DNA of 39,341 nucleotides. It comes from a virus. The notes under the pieces were generated by a model. That model did not search any database. It was given only the letters and a program-made list of their open reading frames with translations, and was not told the origin of the DNA. Below are positions 7,181-9,433 of this stretch, piece after piece (within the stretch, counting starts at the first letter, position 1; every line of letters begins with the position of its first letter). The position numbers and the translations under genes are program-made. The stretch lies in IMG/VR virus record IMGVR_UViG_3300039106_000480, positions 1-39,341 of that record. One strand, given 5' to 3'.

Positions 7181-7267
7181 TGGTGGATGCGGATGGATTC
7201 GAACCACCAGCGTTTCTTATGTCACAGATTTACAGTCTGCTGCCTTCAACCGTTTGGCTACGCATCC
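7181..7267 (-). tRNA. tRNA-Tyr (GUA)
   Basis: An 87-nt class II tRNA with long variable arm and encoded CCA. The anticodon loop CTGTAAA gives GUA. The acceptor GGATGCG pairs with CGCATCC. Confidence 0.93.
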
Positions 7268-7408
7268 ATATTGAAACATACTCTCTTCGGACTTTCACCG
7301 AAGAATATCCCACTCTTTCGAATCTTACCCTGCTTTTACAGGTTGCTTTCTAGATTGATCCGGATCTTACTAGAAAGTTTCGGGATTTTAAAATATGTTT
7401 CAATATGG
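7266..7408 (-). ncRNA. Unassigned structured element inside tRNA cluster
   Basis: The gap between tRNA-Tyr and tRNA-Leu(UAA) is bounded by a perfect 15-bp inverted repeat (7266-7280 with 7394-7408). Inside are three hairpins: 7284-7290 with 7298-7304 (7 bp), 7329-7332 with 7339-7342 (4 bp) and 7346-7353 with 7370-7377 (8 bp, with a GATCCGGATC inner repeat). A further pairing joins 7307-7311 to 7383-7387. No reading frame fits. No known ribozyme or riboswitch consensus was recognised. It must be co-transcribed with the tRNAs. Confidence 0.55.
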
Positions 7409-7492
7409 TGCCCAAGACCGGAATCGAACCGGTACGCCCTTACGAGCGAGAGATTTTAAGTCTCTTGTGTCTACCTATTCCACCACTCGGGC
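7406..7492 (-). tRNA. tRNA-Leu (UAA)
   Basis: An 87-nt class II tRNA with encoded CCA and a normal long variable arm, unlike the neighbouring CAA isoacceptor. The anticodon loop CTTAAAA gives UAA. Confidence 0.95.
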
Positions 7493-7495
7493 ATC

Positions 7496-7572
7496 TGGTG
7501 TCTCCGGAGGGACTTGAACCCCCAACCAACGGATTATGAGTCCGCTGCTCTGACCAATTGAGCTACAGAGAC
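7496..7572 (-). tRNA. tRNA with CAU anticodon, probably tRNA-Ile2
   Basis: A 77-nt cloverleaf with encoded CCA. The anticodon loop CTCATAA gives CAU. The variable loop TTGGT and T-arm GGTTCAAGTCC match bacterial tRNA-Ile(CAU) rather than elongator tRNA-Met, which usually has GGTTCGAATCC. It is the first tRNA behind the promoter and lies directly downstream of a TilS gene, the enzyme that converts this anticodon to read AUA. Confidence 0.85.
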
Positions 7573-7593: not shown

Positions 7594-7621
7594 ATTATAC
7601 AGCATCCATCCTATTTGTCAA
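7594..7621 (-). promoter_or_regulatory. Sigma70-like promoter of the main tRNA cluster
   Basis: Minus-strand TTGACA (7616-7621), 16 bp, TATAAT (7594-7599), ending 22 bases before the first tRNA. The -35 box overlaps the last codons of tilS. No palindrome lies upstream, unlike the other promoters. Confidence 0.8.
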
Positions 7622-9112: not shown

Positions 9113-9433
9113 CTATTTTGAGGTTAGTACATTGTCAATAAATTTGTTGATCCATCCGAGTGATTTTTGCGTTTTTTTCGTAATCACACCGTAAAATTTA
9201 GATCCAACAAGAGTTTTTAGGTAAGATTCAGGATGAAGAAAGATTGCTTCAAAGGTTTCATCGAATTTAGCATTACCTTCTTCATCATCATAGAAGAAAA
9301 CAATGTGGTATACATCATCTTTAATGCGTTTTTCTTGTTTATATTCACCATCGTATAGAAAATACGCTAGATTGTAACCACCCGAACCATCTGGAAGAAA
9401 ATAAATGCCATCATAATCAAGAGTATCGTTCAT
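9113..9433 (-). CDS. Hypothetical phage protein
   Basis: A 106-residue acidic protein rich in aromatic residues (FLPDGSGGYNLAYFLYDGEY, YHIVFFYDDEEG), likely a beta-sheet fold. Not recognised. Its start overlaps the end of the 9417-9572 gene by 17 bases in another frame, typical of this compact operon. Confidence 0.6.
   Translation of the reverse strand: MNDTLDYDGIYFLPDGSGGYNLAYFLYDGEYKQEKRIKDDVYHIVFFYDDEEGNAKFDETFEAIFLHPESYLKTLVGSKFYGVITKKTQKSLGWINKFIDNVLTSK

Follow-up and report, generated by a model that had tools for sequence, protein, structure and literature searches.

The spacer between tRNA-Leu(UAA) and tRNA-Tyr in the window (the whole 39,341-nucleotide stretch of viral DNA analysed) is, as judged from sequence comparison, one among hundreds of differently filled, helix-held RNA modules of related viruses. 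Comparison across loci showed a helix from the CCA of one tRNA to the next tRNA, closing a structured interior that moves between tRNA positions and varies from virus to virus. The class looks like a new group of virus-only small RNAs absent from databases. Taken as a whole, and with somewhat better than even confidence, we read the elements as virus-only modular RNAs of T4-like tRNA arrays, in which the helix would be a processing clasp that releases the interior RNA.

The window carries an array of eleven tRNAs, all on the minus strand, and the element is therefore to be read on the minus strand. Its gap is 138 nt long; the remaining gaps of the cluster, put at 4-23 bases by the first-pass annotation, are 3-15 bases by ARAGORN. 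Both flanking tRNAs are complete. On this strand, the first tRNA is preceded at a distance of 21 bp by a sigma-70-type promoter match (TTGACA-16-TATAAT), which would transcribe the element. As this consensus promoter precedes the array on the tRNA strand, the element is probably contained within the tRNA precursor. The features, by position in the window, are as follows.

7181..7267, minus strand: tRNA-Tyr(GUA), downstream neighbour, first two bases clasped
7266..7283, minus strand: outer helix, 3' strand, GAGUAUGUUUCAAUAUGG; the final GG is tRNA-Tyr bases 1-2
7268..7405, minus strand: element-bearing spacer between the two tRNAs, 138 nt
7284..7304, minus strand: hairpin 4, with the 7-nt loop UGAAAGU, immediately 5' of the outer 3' strand
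7307..7311, minus strand: inner helix, 3' strand, GGGAU
7312..7323, minus strand: hairpin 3, a short stem with a conserved GNRA tetraloop (GAAA)
7329..7342, minus strand: hairpin 2, CCUG/CAGG
7346..7377, minus strand: hairpin 1, CUUUCUAG/CUAGAAAG; other letters with the pairing rebuilt in three relatives
7382..7386, minus strand: inner helix, 5' strand, AUCCC; AUCCA or ACCC in relatives, with the partner changed to match
7391..7408, minus strand: outer helix, 5' strand, CCAUAUUGAAACAUAUUU; the CCA is the 3' CCA of tRNA-Leu(UAA)
7406..7492, minus strand: tRNA-Leu(UAA), upstream neighbour, CCA clasped
7594..7621, minus strand: sigma-70-type promoter match TTGACA-16-TATAAT, 12/12, a consensus match only

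The perfect 15-bp inverted repeat recognized earlier was found with arms at 7266-7280 and 7394-7408, and it does engage the ends of both flanking tRNAs, overlapping bases 1-2 of tRNA-Tyr and the CCA of tRNA-Leu(UAA). By simple arithmetic, a perfect repeat of 15 bp within 150 nt is expected by chance about 0.01-0.02 times per window, before both arms are required to meet tRNA ends. When the tRNA-sense (minus) strand of 7266-7408 was folded as RNA, the outer helix grew to 18 pairs, and the RNA between the CCA of tRNA-Leu(UAA) and base 2 of tRNA-Tyr, both included, reads CCAUAUUGAAACAUAUUU...GAGUAUGUUUCAAUAUGG. This helix closes a four-hairpin RNA. The inner ATCCC/GGGAT helix of the first-pass annotation was recovered, as AUCCC/GGGAU, and holds three hairpins; a fourth hairpin lies outside that helix. 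The minimum free energy of the whole element was -53.6 kcal/mol, compared with -24.5 +/- 3.3 kcal/mol in dinucleotide shuffles (z -8.8, 0/200), and the interior alone was also more stable than shuffles (z -4.3). The earlier proposal of a structured RNA within the tRNA transcript is supported.

Two further observations were made around the array. Its first tRNA (7496-7572, minus strand) has the anticodon CAU, and directly upstream of the array is a TilS-type lysidine synthetase domain (TIGR02432; 7611-8234, minus strand; 115.8 bits, cut-off 93.6). From the sequence, this CAU tRNA may in truth be tRNA-Ile2, and the virus would then supply the enzyme that modifies it. In addition, a tyrosinase-domain protein (PF00264, E 4e-35) is encoded in this viral contig at 3642-5087 on the minus strand, with GDSL-lipase-like and rubrerythrin-like proteins as its neighbours.

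The element was then sought in other viruses. A first set of loci was fetched with the TilS, rubrerythrin-like and ribonucleotide reductase proteins of the window, and was thus blind to the element. CCA-anchored helices were detected in these loci for 22 of 251 tRNAs, and the clasp was seen again in several independent tRNA gaps. Over the same 251 tRNA ends, strong stems started 14-21 times at offsets -4 to +2 from the CCA (17-21 at -4 to 0), compared with about 1-2 times per position elsewhere. Scanning of IMG/VR, whose records are fragments, with the stem pattern gave at least 119 contigs, and a second scan, aimed at longer elements, yielded at least 118. Among the 136 elements listed, the CCA of the pattern coincided with that of an annotated tRNA in 93, nearly all on the tRNA strand; about a quarter of the pattern-found elements had no recognizable tRNA immediately upstream, and 34 of those listed lacked even a T-loop motif there. 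With a tRNA-anchored detector that permits G.U pairs and one mismatch, 287 elements were counted among the 3099 tRNAs of all fetched loci. The helix is 17-22 bp long throughout the class. Its 5' strand begins at the upstream tRNA's CCA; its 3' arm either reaches one base into the following tRNA (65 cases) or stops 4-10 bases short of it. In 30 whole records the pattern occurred 0-2 times each and the reversed control never. As a side observation, some clasped elements follow a recurrent short RNA that is not a tRNA and ends in a hairpin plus CCA (L184 ~9366-9404, L192 and L228; also L164, L205 and L215), with ends such as ...CGCCGGAUUUUGUAACCGGCAACCA and ...GCCAGCAACACUGGCUACCA. The arrays may thus hold further CCA-ended RNAs that are no tRNAs.

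The carriers are, by their gene content, uncultivated T4-like viruses: the T4 capsid protein gp23 was detected in 21 of 40 carrier records, including nearly all of those above 110 kb. Searches beyond them gave no match. The strict form of the stem pattern was absent from 84,980 prokaryote genomes, and no strong CCA-anchored stem was observed at 110 tRNAs of six named phages, T4-like or jumbo, that carry tRNA arrays (T4, KVP40, Aeromonas phages 65 and Aeh1, S-PM2, and Burkholderia phage FLC9). The window element and four others gave nothing by blastn against 50,697 named phage records. For Rfam, only the tRNAs exceeded threshold in the whole window, with GOLLD, ROOL and introns absent, and 20 further elements gave chance-level matches against Rfam 15 (best, mir-5928, 28.5 bits against 59). 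The best permissive match, RAGATH-9 (RF03146), is full-length and similar in topology, but was rejected for its score and setting: at 17.6 bits (E 0.42) it is far under the cut-off of 75.2 bits, none of 29 related records exceeded the cut-off, and the best match there was without a nearby tRNA. No Rfam family matches the element. The earlier suggestion of a new phage non-coding RNA is supported.

What is conserved in the class is the outer helix, while the interiors vary. BLAST clustering of the 287 elements gave 146 interior families, of which 49 have at least two members, although fast divergence could split true families. About 65% of within-family pairs differ in the isotype of the upstream tRNA, and yet same-isotype pairs (35%) exceed the 16% of shuffles (maximum 25%), indicating both exchange and inheritance. 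Two elements of one virus usually have unlike interiors. This difference, the intact flanking tRNAs and the lack of any Rfam intron argue against a mobile-intron remnant, one of the origins considered at first. Taken overall, the interiors exceed shuffles in stability only slightly (mean z -0.52), and their G+C content is 0.47 compared with 0.39 for their loci. T-loop hairpins were observed in 28 of the 146 families, against 6.5 in shuffles, and GNRA hairpins in 18, against 7.4. Anticodon-like loops were only slightly more frequent than in shuffles (19 of 146 families; shuffles 10.8, maximum 18), and none of 24 matched the anticodon of the upstream tRNA; a decoy of the neighbouring tRNA, in the sense first put forward, is thus not supported.

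For the family of the window element, a covariance model built from three members detected seven records, representing five distinct sequences at 91-160 bits, so that the window interior has four distinct relatives; the next scores dropped to 44 bits, from elements that have only the stem in common. Within the family, the upstream neighbour is Leu(UAA), Gln, Glu or Phe, and in one case an unannotated tRNA-like end. In the five-sequence alignment 98.4% of cells are paired, and both sides had changed in 16 of 38 pairs; the absence of such compensatory change from homologous clusters would have told against the first-pass reading. When the partner was slid by 1-3 columns as a control, pairing fell to 33-50%; because the alignment is model-fitted and the sequences are related, shuffle counts for it are not probabilities. 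Helices read by hand concur, the inner helix being AUCCC/GGGAU, AUCCA/UGGAU or ACCC/GGGU. The tetraloop is GNRA in every sequence, and the loop of hairpin 4 is UGARANN in all five, consistent with the T-loop rule UNNRANN. In a second, unrelated family, both sides had changed in 15 of 39 pairs. Comparison thus showed that selection acts on the structured interior of two families or more. A long interior family of 211-239 nt, mostly behind tRNA-Glu (L036+9223, L055+8488, L202+9802 and L252-12648), was also noted; it has the conserved stretches GGUUACCAA...CCAGUAGGU and CUCUCGCUAAGUUACAUGAA and is a promising candidate for an RNA family in its own right.

The outer helix itself appears to form in RNA. 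At stem positions 11, 12, 15 and 16, which are free in the search pattern, 127 G.U pairs were counted against 0 A.C pairs, an asymmetry indicating that the tRNA-sense strand folds on itself. The arms differ in sequence with the pairing retained. At position 8, an A.C mismatch between perfect adjacent pairs was observed in 53 of the 136 elements listed, mainly behind tRNA-Lys(UUU), and could be a mark for protein recognition or cleavage. Pairing extends to tRNA bases 72-73 in 153 of 286 elements, compared with 118 in shuffles (maximum 135).

Elements are not evenly distributed among tRNAs, the preferred upstream neighbours being Lys(UUU), Glu(UUC), Gln(UUG) and Leu. In the protein-fetched loci, 19 of 31 Lys(UUU), Gln(UUG) or Glu(UUC) tRNAs carried an element, compared with 3 of 220 others (Fisher 1e-17, a value that overstates independence, as the loci come from related viruses). 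Over all loci the rates were 63% for Lys(UUU), 47% for Glu(UUC), 25% for Leu(UAG), 24% for Gln(UUG) and 14% for Leu(UAA), against 0/121 for Ser(GCU), 0/116 for Asp and 1/253 for Met. Base 72 was considered as a cause of this preference and rejected, for it tracks the isotype and not the element: tRNAs of one isotype with and without an element hardly differ at this base. As a separate observation, a U1.U72 mismatch is usual in the viral tRNA-Gln of the fetched loci, and a G1.U72 wobble in their tRNA-Glu and tRNA-Lys; such weak acceptor ends are unusual, and occur exactly in the isotypes carrying most elements.

The isotype preference is not predicted by the processing model, and it counts in favour of a regulatory lock. 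Here the helix would sequester the CCA of certain tRNAs (Lys, Glu, Gln, Leu), and in many cases bases 72-73 too. Until some condition or factor opened the helix, maturation or charging would be delayed, or the tRNA ends would be protected against host nucleases; the interior would be chiefly a spacer or sensor. The excess of pairing to bases 72-73 over shuffles also fits. However, conserved, covarying multi-hairpin interiors in at least two families exceed the needs of a spacer, and base 72 hardly differs within an isotype whether the element is present or absent. We consider the lock rather unlikely.

A helix with constant ends around a hypervariable middle is also reminiscent of integron attC sites, imperfect palindromes in which the ends are conserved and the middle is variable. 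Single-stranded DNA sites of this type, shuffling tRNA genes as cassettes, would account for one interior family standing behind different tRNAs, and one-strand folding of DNA would likewise yield the G.U bias. The enriched GNRA and T-loop hairpins are, however, RNA motifs, the interiors covary along their length, and arms that vary with the pairing kept are disfavoured under a sequence-reading recombinase. Recombination sites are accordingly quite improbable.

A decayed tRNA retained among functional ones could leave a similar spacer. In 13 of the 99 families of the first set, against 0.03 in shuffles, a full GGTTCRANTCC T-arm motif is retained, often at its tRNA-like place immediately 5' of the 3' arm, a hint that some of the elements descend from tRNAs. 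Most interiors, that of the window included, are nevertheless without tRNA homology, and the window family maintains a non-cloverleaf fold through compensatory change, so that a pseudogene is quite improbable for this family. Decay of tRNAs may account for the origin of some interiors, not for their present nature. Non-autonomous, MITE-like transposons, with the arms as terminal inverted repeats at scattered positions, are largely refuted, since same-genome copies (e.g. L192, L216 and L213) are alike in arms and not in interiors, the 30 whole records held 0-2 occurrences each in place of near-identical copies, and the arms covary through G.U intermediates only.

Among known RNAs, T4 RNAs C and D (species 1 and 2, rnaC/rnaD) are likewise small structured RNAs on the tRNA strand of a T4-like tRNA cluster, and rnaC ends in a T-arm-like hairpin when the T4 region is read and folded. 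Unlike the present elements they have no long CCA-anchored helix, the best stem, at the tRNA-Arg end, being 9 bp, and they were rejected as homologues for want of a common outer stem, interior fold or sequence relation. GOLLD and ROOL differ in being much larger (GOLLD >800 nt) and in occurring in bacterial genomes too, and we know of no CCA-anchored clasp in either. They resemble the element as structured phage or prophage RNAs often found near tRNA islands, with function unknown (PMC12286853). Neither was matched by Rfam in the window. In the literature surveyed on RNAs in phage tRNA arrays, mostly outside subscription journals, only GOLLD, ROOL and unrelated work were found.

The closest analogy for the helix is rRNA processing. 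In pre-16S and pre-23S rRNA, long complementary flanks join the RNA ends and carry RNase III sites, with tRNAs in the same transcript. The clasp shares this bracketing of a structured RNA in a tRNA-containing transcript; it differs in that the helix takes in the functional end of a neighbouring tRNA and in that conservation of the RNA inside it does not extend from one virus to another. The duplex of an RNase III stem, perfect or near-perfect, about two turns long and made from both RNA ends, is present class-wide at 17-22 bp. On this analogy, processing is the most likely role of the stem. Viral RNase III was sought and found in 0 of 38 records, so that the nuclease would need to be the host's.

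The processing clasp would then operate as follows. The tRNA array would be transcribed as one precursor, in which the outer helix forms. Host RNase III, specific for double strands, would probably cut within the clasp and set both tRNAs free for end trimming by 3' exonucleases and RNase P. The interior would persist as a stable small RNA closed by a short stem; for the window family, the predicted product is an AUCCC/GGGAU multibranch with GNRA and T-loop-like hairpins. A stem over the CCA and the first base of the next tRNA could also impede maturation instead of aiding it. Also counting against this reading are the slight overall stability of the interiors and the elements that lack a recognizable upstream tRNA. 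Because T-loops are enriched and the elements stand beside Lys, Glu, Gln and Leu tRNAs, our best guess is that the interior RNA acts on tRNA- or translation-related host machinery. More tentatively, and with considerable doubt, the elements may represent a new mode of RNA gene organization, a library of exchangeable small RNAs with a standard helix and the CCA of a tRNA as release site, placed preferentially by Lys, Glu, Gln and Leu tRNAs and directed against host defences that target tRNAs or translation.

To our knowledge, the reason for phage tRNA arrays and their extra RNAs has been an open question since the stable RNAs of T4. One odd spacer has led to hundreds of natural variants with a common, testable handle. 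Should the released RNAs prove stable, few known groups of viral small RNAs would be as diverse, and the tRNA preference would be a pointer to what they act on.
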